A stretch of 64,000 nt of DNA from a virus. Shown here in pieces: positions 16,282 through 62,761 of this stretch. The position numbers and the translations under genes were made by a program. The stretch is taken from positions 1 to 64,000 of IMG/VR virus record IMGVR_UViG_3300047548_001390. One strand, 5' to 3'. The notes beneath the pieces are model-generated. The model was not told where the DNA came from. It worked only from the letters and a program-made list of their open reading frames with translations, and ran no database searches. Numbering within the stretch: position 1 is the stretch's first letter; each line of letters begins with the position of its first letter.

Positions 16282-17253
16282 TTAACCTAAGTAGAAGTCA
16301 AGAGGAGCTGACTTGTTGATCAATTCATCTTCAAGCTCTTTAATTTCTGATATGGCCGTTTGATACATTGATTGACCATCAATGGTGACTCCACCAGGTA
16401 GTTGAATACCAGAAAATTTAGAAAGATTAGTTGCCCATTGTCTCTTAAAAAGAGCAGTAGTATAGTGTTTCAACCATGGCTCGCTCCAGACTTTTTGGAA
16501 CTGAGCTGGATCTAGAGCACGATAGCATTCCACCACAACATGATCTCCAGGACGGATATCTGTTTCCCAGTTAATTACAGGATACAAACGTCCTTGCATA
16601 CGGTTGAAACTGATTTGTGGTCTGCCATTCAATTCTAGGTCAAGCAAAGCAAGGTGACCCATCACTTGCTTATAATAGATGATAGATGTTGATGCAAGAT
16701 CATACAAGTCGTTCAATCTTAACTGATATTGAATATCAAACATTGATTTGGATGTCTGAGTACCAGCAAATGGAATTAAACGAACAACACCATATACCCA
16801 ATCTGACAACTGAAGATATTTTAATTCTGTTTCTCCAGGCGTATAAAAATTTGTAGTGGCAAGGGTTGCGGTAATCGCTGGATTGTCTTCCACTTGAATT
16901 GTTTCACCGGCTTGGAATTCGCCAGTAACAAAACGAATAATCAGTTCTGTTCCTTGCGATACTTTGTCTGTTTGATCAACAACTCGAGCACGTGCTCCAG
17001 ATGTTTGGCCAATAACCCAATCATTTAATGGGAAGGTTTCTGCAACAGATTGCTGCAAAGTAAGAGTTGAAGCATTAATCTTGTGCTTGAGATATACTTT
17101 TTCAATGCCGTCATAGTGATACAAACGCCAGTATTCCAAGGCTTCGTCGATGCGATCCTCCAACTGGTCGTCTTCTATATTAATTTCAAGAACAGGAGCT
17201 CCGAGATTACGAAGGCAGTATTCTTTTAATTGCTGTCTAGTTGTAACGGCCAT
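16282..17253 (-). CDS. 13: Neck protein gp13
   Basis: A 323-residue neck protein (T4 is 309). It starts TRQQLKEYCLRNLGAPVLEI followed by the helix QLEDRIDEALEYWRLYHYDG, and later has WVYGVVRLIPF and ASTSIIYYKQVMGHLALLDL. All are gp13 signatures. Residues about 75-125 hold a beta insertion (GQTSGARARVVDQ...AGETIQVED). It is the first gene of the 13-14-15-17 operon, behind a late promoter. Confidence 0.93.
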   Translation of the reverse strand: MAVTTRQQLKEYCLRNLGAPVLEINIEDDQLEDRIDEALEYWRLYHYDGIEKVYLKHKINASTLTLQQSVAETFPLNDWVIGQTSGARARVVDQTDKVSQGTELIIRFVTGEFQAGETIQVEDNPAITATLATTNFYTPGETELKYLQLSDWVYGVVRLIPFAGTQTSKSMFDIQYQLRLNDLYDLASTSIIYYKQVMGHLALLDLELNGRPQISFNRMQGRLYPVINWETDIRPGDHVVVECYRALDPAQFQKVWSEPWLKHYTTALFKRQWATNLSKFSGIQLPGGVTIDGQSMYQTAISEIKELEDELINKSAPLDFYLG

Positions 17254-19322: not shown

Positions 19323-20606
19323 TTATTCTGCATTATATTCACACAACATTAAATTAAAGCGACTATTTTCGATAGGTTTATCATCAAGGTTTCCGTGCTC
19401 ATCACAAAAAGTGTATTTAAATCCTGGAAGATGGGATTCATTCAACATATGCAATTTGTGATGCTCACCCCAGAATCCAGGAGGTTCTTTATATGGAACA
19501 GAGATCAATAAAGTATTACAATGTTTCTTTAACTTCTCAACAATTTCTAAACCATTGTCTAAGTGTTCAATCACCTCAAATGCAACAATGGTGTCGTATT
19601 GTTTGAGATGATACGTGTTAATGTCTGCCCATTCAAACTTTCTGTATTTGTTACCAAACTCATATCTTGCCACATCAATAATACGCTTATCATAATCAAC
19701 ACCAGTGTAATCCGATTGTAAATTAAAAAATTGTGATCCAAATCCACTGGAGCATCCAATTTCTAAAATAGAACCATCAAGTGCTTTTGTTGCTGCCCAT
19801 TTATATCGTGCTGCTTCTCTTGCTGGGACTTCTTCACCTGCAAGGTTAACATGACGCTCGAAATTATTCGTTAAAAGGTATTTGTAATACTCTCGATTAT
19901 ACTTACGAGCGACTCTTAACATATTAGATTTGAATCTATCATCCCAATCTTCAACTAGATTGGTGTCTCTCATCGTACCTTGACCTTTGTGATAGATCGG
20001 AAATCCGCCAGTGAACTGTTGACCGCCAGCAAACTTTGGTACGCACTCTTGTAGTGTAAATCCTGCTCTTTGAGCTTCAACACAAAACTCAATGTCTTCT
20101 CCAGCACCAGTGCCATACTCAGTATTCAGTAAACCTATTTTGTCGAATACTTTACGATCAATCATCACACAGAAAAACACTGCAAAGTCTGCATTTGCTT
20201 CTGGTGAGTGATTAATGATTGGTGCGGAAATACCACAATTCTGTTTAAGCAGAAGCGGACTCTCTAAAAGATTTATCCAGTAGTTTTTATCTTGTGGAAG
20301 GAGAACGGTGTCATTGTTTAGAAGAATGATACGCTGTCCAGTACAGACTTCGAGACCAACGTTAATTGCTTCCGGATATCCAATAGCGTCATTGTTCCAA
20401 ACAACTTTGAGATGATTTGAGAATCCAATAAAATCGAACTTTTGTTGAAGTCCACTAAGGTATTCGCCAGTGTTATCGATACATCCGTTTGCCGATATGA
20501 CCAACTCAACATCAGTCATATCAGTGTGATTGAAGATGGATTCTATGCAGGGTTTTAAATAATCATCACAATGATTAAAAGTTGGGATTACAATACTATA
20601 TTTCAT
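19323..20606 (-). CDS. Bifunctional glycosyltransferase GT2 - methyltransferase
   Basis: The N-terminal GT2 domain (1 to about 235) has MKYSIVIPTFNHCDDYLKPC, LNNDTVLLP (donor/metal site) and a GEDIEFCVEAQRAG helix. The C-terminal class I SAM-dependent methyltransferase (about 275-400) has motif I LEIGCSSGFG, the acidic residue in TGVDYDKRI and AFEVIEHL. Such fusions build or cap methylated glycans. Its place among tail-fibre genes suggests modification of virion proteins or host surface sugars; the substrate cannot be told from sequence. Confidence 0.85.
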   Translation of the reverse strand: MKYSIVIPTFNHCDDYLKPCIESIFNHTDMTDVELVISANGCIDNTGEYLSGLQQKFDFIGFSNHLKVVWNNDAIGYPEAINVGLEVCTGQRIILLNNDTVLLPQDKNYWINLLESPLLLKQNCGISAPIINHSPEANADFAVFFCVMIDRKVFDKIGLLNTEYGTGAGEDIEFCVEAQRAGFTLQECVPKFAGGQQFTGGFPIYHKGQGTMRDTNLVEDWDDRFKSNMLRVARKYNREYYKYLLTNNFERHVNLAGEEVPAREAARYKWAATKALDGSILEIGCSSGFGSQFFNLQSDYTGVDYDKRIIDVARYEFGNKYRKFEWADINTYHLKQYDTIVAFEVIEHLDNGLEIVEKLKKHCNTLLISVPYKEPPGFWGEHHKLHMLNESHLPGFKYTFCDEHGNLDDKPIENSRFNLMLCEYNAE

Positions 20607-23332: not shown

Positions 23333-23997
23333 AATCCAAACCTTCCACGAATTGCTCTAAAATTATCTAAAACTTGTTGGTCACTTAATGAAATATTGTA
23401 AGCTAATACCATTGACATATCACCTTGCCAATATCCGGCATATCCGGCACCGATAGTTATATTTGCTGATGTATATGTTAATTGTCCATACGAATGTGCT
23501 GTTGTGGATGATAAGCTACCGTTAATATACCACTTATGTTGATTGAAATCACGGGTAATACACATGACATTCCAAACGTTTCTAGGAGTAGTTGGGCTAG
23601 CAATGCCTATGTAAGGTACGTTGTTTGCTCCAGCATCACCAATATACTGACTTATATTATCTCCTTGCTCATGAGTCCAAGTTCCATACCCACCATATGC
23701 CTGATCCCACGGATTGCGCCTACCGGACGTATATGTGTGCCTCATCACAATCATGAGTGTTTGATTGTTAGAAAAATCCAATGTTGAATTATTCGTAACT
23801 GTTCCGGAATTGGAAGTACCGTTAAAGGTAAAATAAGGTCTCGTAAATGTAGGTGTTGACGTCCAAACACAGTGATTATTGTTTCCGCTTACATCAAACC
23901 ACGTTGACCCTGTACCTGGATAGCTTTTGACGTTTGCTGCATCAAGACAAAGTACTAATCCATCAGTAATAATAGTCGTACCATACTCAATTGCCAT
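23329..23997 (-). CDS. LamG-domain tail protein (222 aa)
   Basis: A single LamG/concanavalin-like domain behind a short anchor. The start (IEYGTTIITDGLVLCLDAA) and end (LDNFRAIRGRFGL) are near-copies of those of the 21657-23165 fibre. Internal signatures are STWFDVSGNNNHC, PYFTFNGTSNSGTVTN, NVWNVMCITRDFNQHKWYIN and ITIGAGYAGYWQGDMSMV. The ATG at 23995-23997 overlaps the stop of the collagen-like fibre gene (TGATG). A sugar-binding adhesin role is inferred from the fold family. Confidence 0.85.
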   Translation of the reverse strand: MAIEYGTTIITDGLVLCLDAANVKSYPGTGSTWFDVSGNNNHCVWTSTPTFTRPYFTFNGTSNSGTVTNNSTLDFSNNQTLMIVMRHTYTSGRRNPWDQAYGGYGTWTHEQGDNISQYIGDAGANNVPYIGIASPTTPRNVWNVMCITRDFNQHKWYINGSLSSTTAHSYGQLTYTSANITIGAGYAGYWQGDMSMVLAYNISLSDQQVLDNFRAIRGRFGL

Positions 23998-26921
23998 CAA
24001 TCAGTCTCCACTTGCAACTTATCAATATCGACACGTTCCGCTAACACATAGTAATAACAGTTGATATCTGTACTCATAAAATTATCATTCCCAACATACA
24101 CTTTGTTGTCTTCAACTTTCTTAACATACAGTTTCTGGTGTTTTCCAATAGGTGTAAGTTGAACAGTAATTGATTCTGGATCAACTAACTTTGTCCAGTA
24201 GTCCGGTAATTCAATTACATTCCCTGTAAGTTTTCCACGAACATAAACGCCGTTCTCTGGACCTTCCAAAGAACCATAAATTAACCTCTTACCCTCTTTA
24301 GTTGGGTGAGGGATAGAGAACGACTTGGATACAGCAGATATTGTACCAGTTGCTGCATTAAATGATAATTTTGTTGTAGTTACTTTAGGTGTCTGATTAG
24401 ATCCAGCAGCACCAACCATGACAGGATATAGAGTAACGGTTGACGTGTCATCAGTTGCGTTAATTGCAGTTGATGGGCCGCTGGCACCACTGATACCAGA
24501 CCAACCTGAATATCCAGAAATACCCGAGTATCCACTAAATCCAGAATCACCATTAGATCCAATTACTCCATCTTGTCCTGAGTACCCACTAAAACCTGAG
24601 TAACCAGAAAATCCGGATGCACCGTCACCACCAAGTACACCATCTTGCCCTGAGTAACCACTTATTCCGGAGTATCCAGAATAACCAGAAATACCACTGT
24701 ACCCCGAGGCACCAATTTCTCCGGAATAACCAGAGAACCCAGATTCACCTTGTGGTCCAGTTTCTCCAGAAAATCCTGAATAGCCACTAAAGCCAGAATC
24801 ACCTGAAGCACCAACTTCACCCGACAAGCCGTCTTGACCACTAAACCCTGAGTACCCGGAAATGCCCGAGTAACCACTAGTGCCAGACTCGCCTTGAATA
24901 CCCTGTTCACCTTGCGCACCAGAATATCCGCTGATACCAGACTCTCCAGAATATCCACTAAATCCTGATATGCCGGAGTCACCAGAGTATCCACTAATGC
25001 CGCTGAATCCTGATATTCCAGTCTCTCCTTGAGCGCCATCTTGGCCGGAGTAGCCACTAAATCCAGAATATCCGGAGATACCTGAAGCGCCGGAGTCTCC
25101 ACTAAATCCGGATGCGCCCTCTTGACCGGAGTATCCACTAATGCCGCTGAATCCAGAGTAACCACTGAATCCCGATTGTCCATCTAACCCCGAATAACCC
25201 GAGTAACCAGACTCACCGCTAAACCCTGATTCACCTTGTCCAGAATATCCGCTAATACCACTAAACCCTGAGAAGCCGCTTAACCCCGATATACCTTGCT
25301 CACCTTGGATACCTTGCGCACCAGAAAGATCAGTTACATACTGATATGAAGAGCCGTTCCAAAGATATAACCTTGAGCTCTCTGCATCTTCCACATTACC
25401 AGTATCGATAATAGCAAATTGACCTGCTGTGATACCTGTTGGCGATGTATCTGCTGTTAATGCTGCAACTGAACTATAAGTTTTGGCAATAGTGAATCCC
25501 ATACCAACAGCACCACTGAATCCTGAGAATCCACTAATACCTGAATATCCAGAAATACCAGATTCACCTTGAATACCATCTTGTCCTGAATATCCACTGA
25601 AGCCTGAGTACCCACTAAATCCTGATTCCCCATTAGCACCAGATTCACCTGAGAATCCGGAATATCCAGAAATACCAGATTCACCTTGGATGCCGTCTTG
25701 TCCTGAGTATCCACTGAAGCCGCTTGTACCAGAATACCCACTGATACCAGATTCGCCTTGAGCGCCATCTTGGCCAGAATAACCACTAAATCCAGAATTA
25801 CCTGAGAAACCACTGATACCTGATTCACCTGAATATCCACTTGCACCCGACTCACCTGAGAATCCACTATAACCAGAGATACCCGAGTCTCCGGAAATAC
25901 CAGAATCGCCACTATAACCGGAGATACCGGAGTATCCCGATTCGCCAGAACCCCCACTGAATCCCGATTCTCCTGAGTATCCACTAATGCCGCTATAACC
26001 AGAGATACCCGAGTCTCCGGAGTATCCACTGATACCACTAGCGCCCGATTCTCCTGAGAATCCACTGTAGCCAGAAATACCAGAGTCTCCACTGAATCCA
26101 GATATACCCGATGTGCCTTCTTGTCCTGAATATCCACTGAACCCAGATTCTCCGGAATAACCACTAAACCCAGAGGTACCCGATGCGCCCTCTTGACCAG
26201 AGTAACCGCTAAATCCGCTGTAACCAGAATATCCGGATAATCCTGGAACATCGCCAGGTTGAACATTTTCCCAACGTCCAGCTGTAGAGTTGTATACAAT
26301 TAAATCGTTATTTGCAAGTGTTCCAAATTCGACGTTAGAGTCAGTTCCACCAAGAACTGAACCATTAGTCATCCTAACGTAAATACGACCAGTACTTGCG
26401 TGCTGACGAAGAACAATTGCTATTGGGGTTTTGATATTTGGTGCGGATGGTTTTGTAGAGGTCCATCCACCTGCAACAGCAGGGTTTGGGTAGAGAATTG
26501 TACCAACTGCATATGCACTGGTGTTGACGTCACGAACAACGCCATTTGTAATAATTTGTGCAAACTCATCGTCAGTGGTGATGTCACGAGTAGCAACACC
26601 AATCATGTATTCTGGAGCAACGGTACCATTTGTTACAGCAGCAGCAATAGTGATCTTGTCACCTTGCGCTCCAGTCGCCATAACAAAAGAACCGTTGGGA
26701 ATTGTTATGCCTGATGTGTTTTTACACGGCGGCATGAAGAACTCTTGACCAACCTGTTGGACGACACCATTATCGTGCCCAACATTAAGAGTATCATCTT
26801 CTGTGTTATACCATACACGACCTAGAGCAGGAGTTGCTGCTGTAGTGGTATCAAAGTCTACATAAACAACACCAGCATATGGTGCTAAAAGACCATTCTT
26901 GGCCTTAAATTCGTTTGCCAT
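23997..26921 (-). CDS. Collagen-like tail fibre protein (974 aa)
   Basis: The N-terminal 220 residues resemble phage fibre connector sequence (LGRVWYNTEDDTLNVGHDNG). Residues about 224-470 and 535-810 are Gly-X-Y triplets, dominated by SGYSG, SGFSG and SGISG with occasional GQEGASG/GQDG units, a collagen-like trimeric stalk. A globular insert (about 472-535, TIAKTYSSVAALTADTSPTG to LYLWNGSSYQYV) interrupts it. The C-terminal 110 residues (SFSIPHPTKEGKRLIYGSLE, YVRGKLTGNVIELPDYW) match a conserved end domain of marine T4-like fibres. A late promoter lies 59 bases upstream. Confidence 0.9.
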   Translation of the reverse strand: MANEFKAKNGLLAPYAGVVYVDFDTTTAATPALGRVWYNTEDDTLNVGHDNGVVQQVGQEFFMPPCKNTSGITIPNGSFVMATGAQGDKITIAAAVTNGTVAPEYMIGVATRDITTDDEFAQIITNGVVRDVNTSAYAVGTILYPNPAVAGGWTSTKPSAPNIKTPIAIVLRQHASTGRIYVRMTNGSVLGGTDSNVEFGTLANNDLIVYNSTAGRWENVQPGDVPGLSGYSGYSGFSGYSGQEGASGTSGFSGYSGESGFSGYSGQEGTSGISGFSGDSGISGYSGFSGESGASGISGYSGDSGISGYSGISGYSGESGFSGGSGESGYSGISGYSGDSGISGDSGISGYSGFSGESGASGYSGESGISGFSGNSGFSGYSGQDGAQGESGISGYSGTSGFSGYSGQDGIQGESGISGYSGFSGESGANGESGFSGYSGFSGYSGQDGIQGESGISGYSGISGFSGFSGAVGMGFTIAKTYSSVAALTADTSPTGITAGQFAIIDTGNVEDAESSRLYLWNGSSYQYVTDLSGAQGIQGEQGISGLSGFSGFSGISGYSGQGESGFSGESGYSGYSGLDGQSGFSGYSGFSGISGYSGQEGASGFSGDSGASGISGYSGFSGYSGQDGAQGETGISGFSGISGYSGDSGISGFSGYSGESGISGYSGAQGEQGIQGESGTSGYSGISGYSGFSGQDGLSGEVGASGDSGFSGYSGFSGETGPQGESGFSGYSGEIGASGYSGISGYSGYSGISGYSGQDGVLGGDGASGFSGYSGFSGYSGQDGVIGSNGDSGFSGYSGISGYSGWSGISGASGPSTAINATDDTSTVTLYPVMVGAAGSNQTPKVTTTKLSFNAATGTISAVSKSFSIPHPTKEGKRLIYGSLEGPENGVYVRGKLTGNVIELPDYWTKLVDPESITVQLTPIGKHQKLYVKKVEDNKVYVGNDNFMSTDINCYYYVLAERVDIDKLQVETD
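24490..26250 (-). repeat. Collagen-like coding repeat tract
   Basis: About 1.75 kb of near-repetitive 9- to 18-bp units encoding Gly-Tyr/Phe/Ile-Ser triplets, interrupted once near 25320-25505. The repeat units are similar enough to recombine or slip, and the same unit appears in the broken fibre gene at 20854-20946. Confidence 0.85.
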
Positions 26922-30136: not shown

Positions 30137-31000
30137 TTAAATCAACGGCTTCATTGTGCAGATGTAATAAATCGGCTGTGGTTCTCCATTCATCATCGGA
30201 AGAATGGTCATTTTGAACCTGTTATCGTAAATATCAGACCAACTTCTATTACTTTCTATCGTTTCCCACATTTGATCATATGAATTGATATAGGGAACAC
30301 ACATAATCATGTCTCTTCCTACAACATTATCATAATGACCAAAATCAAATATATCGACAAACCGATCGTTACAAAAAAACATTTTTTTATGTTTATCAAC
30401 AATAAAAATGATATCAGAGGCTGAATTCAGAGCATTGAAACACGCTTTTGTACGCTTTTGTTTTTCGCGGATTGACGTAACATCGCGGCCAATGATAATT
30501 AGCTCTTTTCGTGACCCGTCCACATTGAATACCGGGGTTTTCAAAATATCAAAAATGTATGTCGAACCATCGTGTGGGATGTATTCTTCAGTTCTACACG
30601 TCTTTTTTGTGTTCCACGCCTGGTTGTCTGTCACTTGACATTGAGATAACGACTCAAATAGATGAGGATATACCTTCTTTAATTGTTCATCCGTTTTACC
30701 GTAGTACTCACCGTGATGCCAATTATAAAGACACTGTCCCCGATGGTTCAGCGTCCTCCACTTCCCTTCCCCATCTTTCACTATGACAAGATCATTAATA
30801 GCATCAATAGTAGAATAGAACCGAGATTCAGAAGCATGCAACTCTTCTTGCAATACAGTAGCGGCACTAACGGCAGCTTCGGATACCTCCATAGCTGTAG
30901 TGCTCAATAGGTTAAGACTCTCATCAAGTTGTTTGAGGTCCACCTGATGAGAGTCTTTTTTATGCTGTTTTTTGGGTTTATTTAAAAGACGGGAAATCAT
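30137..31000 (-). CDS. Tandem PAS-domain protein without output domain
   Basis: A 287-residue protein. Residues 20-58 form a probable coiled coil. PAS domain 1 (about 57-180) has SRFYSTIDAINDLVIVKDGE and a clear PAC end (DILKTPVFNVDGSRKELIII, GRDVTSIREK). PAS domain 2 (about 186-287) has FNALNSASDIIFIVDKHKKM and FFCNDRFVDIFDFG. No kinase, GGDEF, HTH or other output domain follows. PAS domains bind small ligands, haem or flavin, or mediate protein contacts. It lies in a late operon with a small membrane protein. Function in the phage is unknown. Confidence 0.85.
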   Translation of the reverse strand: MISRLLNKPKKQHKKDSHQVDLKQLDESLNLLSTTAMEVSEAAVSAATVLQEELHASESRFYSTIDAINDLVIVKDGEGKWRTLNHRGQCLYNWHHGEYYGKTDEQLKKVYPHLFESLSQCQVTDNQAWNTKKTCRTEEYIPHDGSTYIFDILKTPVFNVDGSRKELIIIGRDVTSIREKQKRTKACFNALNSASDIIFIVDKHKKMFFCNDRFVDIFDFGHYDNVVGRDMIMCVPYINSYDQMWETIESNRSWSDIYDNRFKMTILPMMNGEPQPIYYICTMKPLI

Positions 31001-31606: not shown

Positions 31607-32455
31607 TTATGGCTGATCCCATATATTAGTCGCCTTAAAAAACTGTCCGTTTGTATAATCAGTATAAAAATCAAAATTATCTATTGTAACACCCTCCATG
31701 TAGGCATATTTTTTTACATCATTGAAATACACATCTGCAGTGTACTTTTCCATTGGTAAAACATTTTTATCACGAATCTTACATTCGCGGAGATGGTCAA
31801 CCCCTTCTTTCCCCCAGATACCAGTTAATAAATGCCGAGTAATAATTTTTGGATGGTAAGCCATTCCGTGATTATTGAACAATTCTCCTGGAAGTGGAGT
31901 GATCCTTTTGTATCCGTATTCTTTAATTGCTTCAAACACAAGTTTAGGTCCAGCCACATTAAGAACAAACTCTCTGTTTGATTGCTGATCAAAAGGTAAG
32001 GTAATCTTTGTTGTTTCTTTCAGTCTGTTGAACGATGCAACAGCCATCTCCATACAGGTCTCAAAAAACGTATGACCAGCTGAAGATATCATCAAAGCGT
32101 TTTCGATAGGAATATCACCATACGGTGCCTGAACAATGTATACTCCTGACCTCAAATTGCGGTCAAATCTATGATAGCAGAACACATCCATATCTGCATA
32201 GATTCCACCATACTTGTGGAGTATACAGAATCTAGCAAAATCAATTTTCATGATGTGAGCAGGGAACTGTTGGAAGGTTTCCCAGTACTGCGGATAGTGT
32301 GTTTCAATTAAATTGTCGAGATCTTCGTGGTCATTCCAAAGTTTGAACTGATAGTCCGGAAATTTGGACAACCACGAATCTCGACAAGGTTTCCATAAAG
32401 GATGCCACTTTGATTCGTCACTTGGTGCTATATGATGTATAATTTTTGGAATCAT
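31607..32455 (-). CDS. Glycosyltransferase family 32-like (OCH1/capsule type)
   Basis: A 282-residue enzyme. The start MIPKIIHHIAPSDESKWHP, the DYQFKLWND segment, MKIDFARFCILHKYGGIYAD and the DxD metal/sugar-binding motif at residues 88-90 (ADMDVF) are GT32 hallmarks. The family transfers hexoses from nucleotide sugars. It stands among tail-fibre genes, where glycosyltransferases could decorate virion proteins or alter the host surface. Its ATG overlaps the stop of an upstream truncated frame (ATGA), suggesting that a gene formerly preceding it was lost by deletion. Confidence 0.88.
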   Translation of the reverse strand: MIPKIIHHIAPSDESKWHPLWKPCRDSWLSKFPDYQFKLWNDHEDLDNLIETHYPQYWETFQQFPAHIMKIDFARFCILHKYGGIYADMDVFCYHRFDRNLRSGVYIVQAPYGDIPIENALMISSAGHTFFETCMEMAVASFNRLKETTKITLPFDQQSNREFVLNVAGPKLVFEAIKEYGYKRITPLPGELFNNHGMAYHPKIITRHLLTGIWGKEGVDHLRECKIRDKNVLPMEKYTADVYFNDVKKYAYMEGVTIDNFDFYTDYTNGQFFKATNIWDQP

Positions 32456-32501
32456 ATTATAACCTTAGTCACGTTTTTGTCAGTTTTAACGTTATGTTGT
32501 T

Positions 32502-32594
32502 TTAAAATATCTGAGAATTCCTTGTTGCTTGCGTTATTTGCATTAATAAATTGTATGTTAATTTATAAATTGGTAGTTCTTTTGTTTGTGCCAT
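32502..32594 (-). pseudogene. Truncated DGR accessory protein (Avd-like) remnant
   Basis: An ATG at 32592-32594, 29 bases after the adhesin stop, opens a 30-codon frame. Residues 5-25 (KELPIYKLTYNLLMQITQAT) closely resemble the start of four-helix-bundle Avd proteins of diversity-generating retroelements (typically LPIYKxTYDLLLxxxxxTR). The frame then meets a stop; the expected further ~90 residues are missing. From about 32530 a different frame (KEFSDILKQHNVKTDK...) runs to the GT32 start, as if a deletion joined two genes. In DGR cassettes avd follows the variable-protein gene, as here. Recognised by eye only. Confidence 0.6.
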
Positions 32595-32623: not shown

Positions 32624-33973
32624 TTAAATTACAAATCTCCGGACTGCGCGGACCCTGGCGCTGAAAGTCTTATTGGTGTTGCTCGGGGAGCCACCGTTGA
32701 AATCCTGGAACCAAGCATTGGAAGCACCGACCTCGCTGGAAGACCAGTAGTTGTCTGCGTCATTGGTTTCACCAGAAGGTAACGAAGCCCGATTGACCCA
32801 AGCAAGATTTAATTCATCTTTAGCTGGAAGGTACCAATCTGAGAATCCACTAATACTCAGTCCTCTTGTATAAAAAGCAGCAGGATGTGTTGAATTGTTC
32901 ATGTTATTAGTATTTGTCCAGCCATCAACCAAAGATGTTGTTCCACTAGTTGTTGTGCCAGTGGTTTTCCATTGTAACGTAGATGCAGACTGGCCCGATG
33001 CCTTTGGCGCTAACAGTATACCATACCATACCCCACTTACACTTATATGTCCAATAAAATATCCGCCATCAATTAGAGAACCAAGCGTTGAAGTGTAAAT
33101 ACTAAATCTCCGGACTGCGCGGACCCTGTAGCCGGTAGTCTTAGTGGTGCTGATCTGGTCGCCACTGGAGAAGTCCTGGCCCCAAGCCTCGGTTTCAGTG
33201 CGATGACTGGAAGACCAGTAGGAGACTGCATCATTAGCTTCACCGGAGGGTAATGACGCACGAGAGGTCCAAGCAAGATTTAGCTCGTCTCTAGCTGGAA
33301 GATACCAGTCTGCATATCCAGATGCAACGATCCCTCTTGTATAGCTTGCTGCAGCATGCGAAGAGTCGTTCATAAAGTTCGTATTGGCCCAGCCATTGAT
33401 TGCAGATGAGGTTCCACCAGTTGTTGTGCCAGTGGTTTTCCATTGTAACGTAGATGCAGACTGGCCCGATGCCTTAGGTGCTAACAGTATACCATATAGT
33501 ACTCCATTTACACCTAGAGCTCCAATATAATAACCACCTTGATATGATGCACCAAGTGAAGATGCGAATGAAGAGTTAGTAACAAAAGTTGTTCCGGACG
33601 ACCAGGCAGAATAAGTTCCATTTGCATCTTTATAACGCACTCTCCAGTAATATGTGGTGGAGTTACTCAACATTCTCCTTGGGTTAAAAGTATAGGATGT
33701 ACTAGTTCCTGCAATGTCACCGGTGGAAATCACAGTGCTTGCGAAGTTTGATACTGTTGACACCTGAAACTGCGCAGCTGCCATTGAAACGCCATTAAAT
33801 GATGTATATGATGACCCGATTAATGTAATATTTTCAAAATTTGCACCAGTATTTGTAGTACCATCAGCAGGAGTCACATTAGTTGGTTTAATGAGACCTG
33901 TTAGCTGAGTCCCATCACCAATGAATTCTTTGTTATCTGTGATAACAGTAACGCCAGAAATTTTAACAGCCAT
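32624..33973 (-). CDS. Adhesin with two DUF1566/C-type-lectin-like domains (candidate DGR variable protein)
   Basis: A 449-residue protein. After a short anchor, residues about 35-130 form a fibronectin III-like domain (FQVSTVSNF, TYYWRVRYKDANGTYSAW). Two homologous DUF1566 (Lcl/FGE-like lectin fold) domains follow at about 137-290 and 295-449. Both have GGYxIG, LLAPKASGQSASTLQWKTTG, DWYLPAxDELNLAW, YWSSS and the end RVRAVRRF. Each ends in a 41-residue segment of very high divergence inside an otherwise conserved frame. DUF1566 ends are a common DGR target, and this probably forms the receptor-binding tip of a tail fibre. Confidence 0.85.
   Translation of the reverse strand: MAVKISGVTVITDNKEFIGDGTQLTGLIKPTNVTPADGTTNTGANFENITLIGSSYTSFNGVSMAAAQFQVSTVSNFASTVISTGDIAGTSTSYTFNPRRMLSNSTTYYWRVRYKDANGTYSAWSSGTTFVTNSSFASSLGASYQGGYYIGALGVNGVLYGILLAPKASGQSASTLQWKTTGTTTGGTSSAINGWANTNFMNDSSHAAASYTRGIVASGYADWYLPARDELNLAWTSRASLPSGEANDAVSYWSSSHRTETEAWGQDFSSGDQISTTKTTGYRVRAVRRFSIYTSTLGSLIDGGYFIGHISVSGVWYGILLAPKASGQSASTLQWKTTGTTTSGTTSLVDGWTNTNNMNNSTHPAAFYTRGLSISGFSDWYLPAKDELNLAWVNRASLPSGETNDADNYWSSSEVGASNAWFQDFNGGSPSNTNKTFSARVRAVRRFVI
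32633..32755 (-). repeat. Putative DGR variable repeat, copy A (C-terminal)
   Basis: 123 bp aligning without gaps to copy B at 33104-33226 (offset 471). Thirty-two bases differ, 27 of them at codon positions 1 or 2, in 21 of 41 codons. Sixteen changed codons keep the same third base (C, T or G). The last 24 bp (32633-32656) are identical and GC-rich, like an initiation-of-mutagenic-homing end. Adenine-to-any changes from AAC/AAT codons in a template would give this pattern. Confidence 0.7.
33104..33226 (-). repeat. Putative DGR variable repeat, copy B (internal)
   Basis: Partner of copy A in the first DUF1566 domain. Codon pairs copy A/copy B include AAC/TCC, GTC/CGC, TTC/GGC, TCC/GAC, TTC/ACC and GCC/TAC. 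The identical 24-bp block is at 33104-33127. Confidence 0.7.
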
Positions 33974-33984
33974 TTTGATTTCCT

Positions 33985-34542
33985 TTATTGAATATTAAAA
34001 GCAACAACAAATACTTCATCTAATTGTTCTTTTGTCCAACCCATTTGCTTGTACAGTTCTTGTATCGTGGGGCTATTTTTTCTCACTTCAGTTGCATATT
34101 CCCATTCAATCAGCACTTTTGTCTTCATTGGTTCTTGTAAACCTTCAACAAAAGATTGTACTTCAGCCAATTTACCAAGCTCAAGCAGAGCCAATCTAAT
34201 TTGTCTAGCACTAGCGACAGAAGGTAATCTCGCCTTCATCTCGTCTGCTTTAGCTTGATCATATTGTTGTTGAGCAGTTGTTGTTTCCGTCACTGGATTA
34301 CCATCAGCGTCAAGAGTTGACGTTGTAATATCCTTAAACACGTGTACAACACCTTCTACTAACAGGTTTGCATCATCATCGCAGGTGCCATAGTATTTTG
34401 GTACTCGGGTTGGCCAAACACTTTCATCCCACCATTCGATTGCTAACCCTTTTATATCAGGATATTTGGGACCATTGATGGTGGGAGATTTTGAAGCAGA
34501 GACCCCGGTAACGGAATCTACGTGGGTAACACAGATATACAT
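33985..34542 (-). CDS. Putative fibre-associated/assembly protein (185 aa)
   Basis: The N-terminal part has YICVTHVDSVTGVSASKSPT and the Trp-rich GLAIEWWDESVWPTRVPKYY. The C-terminal half is helical (ARQIRLALLELGKLAEVQSF, WEYATEVRKNSPTIQELYKQ), a layout often seen in Mu-like or tail-fibre-assembly-associated proteins of Proteobacteria phages. It lies between an S74 fibre and the lectin-like adhesin. The ribosome-binding site is buried in a 10-bp hairpin. A chaperone role in fibre assembly is possible, not proven. Confidence 0.7.
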   Translation of the reverse strand: MYICVTHVDSVTGVSASKSPTINGPKYPDIKGLAIEWWDESVWPTRVPKYYGTCDDDANLLVEGVVHVFKDITTSTLDADGNPVTETTTAQQQYDQAKADEMKARLPSVASARQIRLALLELGKLAEVQSFVEGLQEPMKTKVLIEWEYATEVRKNSPTIQELYKQMGWTKEQLDEVFVVAFNIQ

Positions 34543-62728: not shown

Positions 62729-62761
62729 TTTATTTAACTCCGTTTTGTTAACTGATAACCC

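Follow-up and report, generated by a model that had tools for sequence, protein, structure and literature searches.

In the diversity-generating retroelement (DGR) of Bordetella phage BPP-1 (mtd/avd/TR/brt), the target gene is followed by avd, a template repeat (TR) and a reverse transcriptase (RT) gene; the target is of the C-type-lectin type, and the changes that it receives are adenine-directed. DGRs are usually catalogued through their RT, so targets whose machinery has been deleted go unseen. More than one variable repeat (VR) can lie within a single open reading frame, as in 31 of 271 multi-VR DGRs, and a Pseudomonas adhesin carries 21 merged VRs (Yan et al. 2019, PMC6642488). Proteins with two VRs are known but uncommon. 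Of the 48 DUF1566-family loci with several VRs that we examined, none had two in frame in one ORF; apparent same-ORF pairs in other DGRs were artefacts of non-coding frames and were discarded.

We analysed a window of 64,000 nucleotides, positions 1–64,000 of the viral record IMGVR_UViG_3300047548_001390, which is linear and 78,106 bases long in full. The record encodes the T4-type virion proteins gp20 (portal), gp17 (terminase), gp18 (sheath), a neck protein and gp23 (major capsid), together with gp6 (baseplate), gp32 and UvsW, and on the strength of the gp20, gp23, gp17, gp18, neck, gp6 and gp32 genes the source phage of the window is T4-type. Among named phages, its nearest portals belong to marine T4-type phages (approximately 50–55% identity). 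No family B DNA polymerase was found in the linear 78-kb record, which therefore probably lacks the replication part of the genome; T4-type relatives run to 140–180 kb. Several other features of the window were observed. Long collagen-like G-X-Y repeats of GFSGYSG types occur in a 974-aa protein (23997–26921, minus strand; PF01391 in five stretches), which is probably a fibre of the same phage. Within the tail-fibre region lies a 287-aa protein with two PAS domains (30137–31000, minus strand), an odd site for a sensor-type protein. Many small ORFs between 55933 and 60479 have repeats of 24–36 bp (families D7, D8) at their start, and a 50-bp repeat is present at 62742, 63372 and 63592.

The locus of interest is a tail adhesin gene with two candidate VRs, whose features and neighbours are listed in the table. 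The adhesin matched PF07603 in two stretches (E 5e-21), Ig_Rha78A_N (E 8e-7) and PHROG 4245. The AlphaFold model of its second DUF1566 domain had a pLDDT of 96, and its best PDB match was the C-terminal domain of Legionella Lcl (8q4e, E 4e-7), followed by weaker matches to C-type lectins. According to the predicted secondary structure, the altered VR residues sit in the last strands and turns of the domain. Judged by the double PF07603 match and the model, the adhesin is a target of the DGR type, with a predicted C-type-lectin-like domain and a VR at its C-terminal end, and it presumably binds the host surface. A further glycosyltransferase gene lies among the tail genes (19323–20606); one of the two glycosyltransferases is fused to a methyltransferase domain.

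Coordinates of the adhesin locus in the window
Feature	Coordinates	Strand	Description
Tail adhesin, 449 aa	32624..33973	(-)	N-terminal part, Ig/FN3-like domain and two tandem DUF1566 domains (Lcl_C, PF07603)
VR_N	33104..33226	(-)	End of first DUF1566 domain, internal to the ORF, in frame
VR_C	32633..32755	(-)	End of second DUF1566 domain, at adhesin C-terminus, in frame
Candidate IMH (initiation-of-mutagenic-homing) element	32633..32657 in VR_C; 33104..33128 in VR_N	(-)	Identical GC-rich 3' end
Probable tail (fibre) assembly chaperone	33985..34542	(-)	Homologue of the gene 3' of RT in intact cassettes
avd stub, 30-codon ORF MAQTKELPIYKLTYNLLMQITQATRNSQIF	32505..32594	(-)	Residues 1-26 match the Avd N-terminus, then break
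Short frame (...KEFSDILKQHNVKTDKNVTKVII)	32452..32530	(-)	Runs on from the avd stub in a different frame, overlaps glycosyltransferase start
Glycosyltransferase, DXD sugar-binding type	31607..32455	(-)	Occupies the place of TR and RT in relatives

The earlier note had read the two 123-bp segments as gap-free copies bearing the codon signature of a DGR, and its position assignments and counts were confirmed, on the minus strand. The segments differ at 32 sites, 13, 14 and 5 of them at codon positions 1, 2 and 3 (27 at positions 1 and 2); 21 of the 41 codons are altered, only two synonymously, and the third base is unchanged in 16 of the 19 codons that change the amino acid. The last 24 bp are identical. 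The candidate IMH element, a 25-bp GC-rich end that is the same in both segments, resembles the VR ends of intact DGRs. The GC content of the segments is 56–59% versus 40% in the genome.

The upstream part of the duplicated domain (111 codons) resembled ordinary divergence, with 29, 16 and 37 differing sites at positions 1, 2 and 3 and 24 synonymous changes among 55 altered codons. Against this background the segments had an excess of differences at positions 1 and 2 (P = 4e-4, binomial test). The third base differed in 5 of 41 codons of the segment versus 17 of 41 just upstream (P = 0.005), and the ratio of transitions to transversions was 8:24 versus 42:40 upstream (P = 0.012), the transition bias being absent from the segments. 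We took as controls pairs of DUF1566 paralogues that lie in related phage contigs with no DGR found beside them. Over the same segment these pairs had 76 differences at positions 1 or 2 and 55 at position 3, compared with 27 and 5 in the window (P = 0.007, Fisher test). Since the two segments match in their third bases and 3' end, whereas the domains around them have drifted apart, one template most likely rewrote both after the duplication.

Two further observations concern the duplication. A 57-bp block well upstream of the VRs is identical in both DUF1566 domains (33419–33475 and 32948–33004), which suggests gene conversion; some exchange between the domains that was not DGR-driven probably occurred. 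Immediately after VR_N (33080–33103) the protein reads RRFSIYT, where VR_C is followed by RRFVI and a stop; the tyrosine codon TAC aligns with the stop codon TAA, as would be seen after the fusion of two tandem genes.

Setting each differing base to A, as the earlier note had proposed, gives AAC/AAT codons (W-N-Q-N-F-N-N-G-N-Q-N-N-N-N-K), and this prediction led to real TR loci. Run as a degenerate DNA pattern over viral contigs, the predicted A-rich template found 65 TR loci, 63 with an adjoining DGR-type RT and 58 with a VR. Their 110 VRs carried 1455 mismatches to the template, 1406 of them at a template A. Both window segments can be aligned gap-free with several templates of complete DGRs. 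Enrichment of A is biased within the searched core of TRs found by the pattern, so we scored sites outside the core and repeated the comparison with TRs from contigs found through the adhesin N-terminal domain only, thereby avoiding circularity. Outside the core, the TR of L151 had A at 12 of 20 differing sites versus 11 of 58 identical sites (P = 1e-3). Among the templates found through the N-terminal domain, that of L172 had A at 25 of the 32 sites that differ in the window versus 24 of the 91 identical sites (P = 4e-7), and that of L206 at 21 of 32 versus 24 of 91 (P = 1e-4). As these two templates were not found through the pattern, they give independent support to a VR identity of both segments. 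Shared structural constraint could explain part of this agreement, so the third-base and control tests are needed alongside it. Taking the codon pattern, the controls and the template alignments together, we consider it near certain that both segments originated as DGR variable repeats.

For this phage, use of a template may be assumed by analogy with the TRs of homologues, and the expected TR end would be AGGGTCCGCGCAGTCCGGAGATTT. The pattern GGGTCCGCGCAGTCCGG had three matches in viral contigs, in unrelated genes, which we dismissed as chance. A blastn search of the adhesin region against phages returned no match, nor did an A1-based search of genome contigs.

The earlier note had suggested looking for a TR and an RT; neither was found in the 78-kb record, and both were found in related contigs, including one from a T4-type relative. 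This contig (L169, IMGVR_UViG_3300047277_000082, which contains L150) has the order adhesin with VR, Avd (PF22296), TR, RT (PF00078) and tail chaperone-like gene (PF16778), an order repeated in further contigs (L176, L178, L194–L198 and L206). In tblastn comparisons with the window, its neck protein was 71% identical, terminase pieces 38–54% and the sheath start 68%, and by these matches L169 is a T4-type relative. Its chaperone-like gene (16448–16909) and the window homologue share 58% identity over 66 aa, and both window VRs align with the L169 TR without a gap, agreeing at 71 of 91 constant sites. Searches for Portal_T4 and Gp23 in the DGR contigs gave no match, the controls being likewise silent and most of the contigs short. 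A search of 50,697 phage records gave 114 DGR-RT matches, and among the matches listed none lay in a record longer than 112 kb, short of the 140–180 kb of T4-type relatives; the RT matches found in phage records included Brt of BPP-1. A 118-aa DUF1566-like protein of L169 (8146–8502, plus strand) is a further DGR target, with VR–TR differences mainly at A (11 of 15). The terminase large subunit gene of L169 (179–3134) looks interrupted by intein-like stretches.

The record of the window, an incomplete genome, contained no RT, including by tblastn with a DGR RT query, and no TR, the best ungapped hit outside the VRs agreeing at 43 of 91 constant sites. What remains of avd begins 30 bp past the adhesin stop, at the place where avd starts in intact cassettes. 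We built an Avd profile from 59 proteins of the TR loci, and in six frames of the 78-kb record hmmsearch gave this stub as the only significant match (E 3.8e-6; next 0.39). The match is short, with 26 residues left versus 109 profile positions in an intact Avd. The short frame joined to the stub resembles the 3'-terminal part of another gene; the joined peptide had no phage homologue at E 10. A Pfam match of the stub to PTPase (E 0.04) was dismissed as chance. Here the chaperone gene precedes the adhesin, whereas in intact relatives it comes after it. Because avd is cut and no RT or TR lies beside the adhesin, the adhesin would seem to be frozen and no longer to vary actively. The local machinery has very likely been deleted, the phage as a whole likely lacks an RT on the available sequence, and variation of the adhesin would have stopped. 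Thus, of the DGR proposed in the earlier note, the VRs stand and a working element in this genome finds no support; nor does a present doubling of tip diversity, as the 78-kb record has no RT or TR and its avd is a 26-residue stub.

Comparable stubs occur elsewhere. In L007 and L008, an adhesin with an Ig/FN3-like domain and a single DUF1566 domain is followed by an avd stub (profile positions 1–24) and then the chaperone gene, and in L009 a similar adhesin is followed by a stub covering positions 1–49 and the chaperone gene. No RT was present in the records of L007 and L008 (61 kb for L007) or of L009. L007 and L008, from two metagenomes, show no base mismatch across 12 kb, a stretch that includes the VR. 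This identity would fit a frozen VR and is weak evidence, as the samples may be closely related. In L173 and L174 the adhesin is followed by the chaperone gene, and avd was not detected between the two. Three stubs with three break points make at least three separate losses likely, and the best reading is that loss of avd, TR and RT is recurrent. In three other phage contigs (L097, L098 and L099), two or three tandem DUF1566 genes lie beside the chaperone gene; avd or RT was not found within the fetched stretch.

Our preferred reading, to which we give a probability of a little over three in four, is that the VRs were written by a DGR whose avd–TR–RT part was later deleted, leaving the adhesin frozen. 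The adhesin of this T4-type phage ends in two tandem C-type-lectin-like (Lcl/DUF1566) domains. An error-prone RT would have copied one TR, randomising the template adenines, and the mutated cDNA would have replaced the matching stretch at the end of both domains, so that the binding face differs per domain and the non-adenine positions stay alike. Later, a deletion or recombination within avd would have removed the TR, the RT and all of avd but a 26-residue remnant between the adhesin and the glycosyltransferase gene. The adhesin in this genome would then be the frozen product of past hypermutation.

We think it unlikely that a DGR still diversifies the VRs in trans, with RT, Avd and TR encoded in unseen sequence of this phage or by another phage or host element. 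The genome is incomplete, and activity would be possible only through an RT and TR in its missing part or through another element. The window VRs keep a clean signature, and targets distant from their RT exist: in L169, approximately 8.5 kb separates the second VR from the RT gene, which lies on the opposite strand. Weighing against this, avd is cut at its canonical place, the 17-bp core of the VR end was in no plausible TR among viral contigs, a 21-bp form of it was absent from genome contigs, and 50 records of T4-type relatives found by their portals, mostly fragments, contained neither DUF1566 nor RT. VR and TR repeats are known to trouble short-read assembly, and a misjoin within avd could have hidden a full avd–TR–RT cassette in the true genome. 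We regard such an artefact as very improbable: the break falls inside avd, approximately 120 bp past the VR and outside any repeat, two assemblies (L007 and L008) share one identical stub junction, and the L009 stub breaks elsewhere. That duplicated lectin domains simply diverged by positive selection or cassette exchange, as phages with DUF1566 domains and no nearby DGR and variable positions that partly follow the fold might suggest, is largely refuted by the avd stub alongside, the coincidence of differing sites with template adenines, the retention in changed codons of third bases that diverge freely just upstream, and the control paralogues, which lack third-base conservation.

More broadly, the DGR might act only transiently as a diversifier of this adhesin in T4-type phages and related large phages, its avd–TR–RT part repeatedly lost through separate avd deletions that fix a successful tip, and the adhesin with its frozen VRs might persist and be duplicated into tandem tips; our confidence in this generalisation is evenly balanced. 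The three stub lineages with different break points, together with intact cassettes, form a set for testing the later fate of a hypermutation system, including whether the VR freezes and whether loss is favoured in lytic phages. With the L169 cassette, a T4-type phage is seen to carry a complete DGR.

Among the systems compared, L169/L150 shares with the window a T4-type phage, a DUF1566 target and an avd start at the same place after the target. Unlike the window, it keeps avd, TR and RT intact between adhesin and chaperone gene and has its two VRs in two genes, whereas the window has lost these parts and continues with a glycosyltransferase. L007, L008 and L009 resemble the window in their Ig/FN3-like and DUF1566 adhesin, in an avd cut past its N-terminus and in having no RT in the record, and differ from it in having one DUF1566 domain, other break points and the chaperone gene directly next. 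The BPP-1 DGR, in contrast to the window, has one VR and complete machinery. Legionella Lcl has the fold of the DUF1566 domain in its C-terminal domain (PDB 8q4e) and is a bacterial, non-phage adhesin. The same-ORF multi-VR DGRs (PMC6642488) are like the window in having several VRs per target protein, but there the DGR is present.
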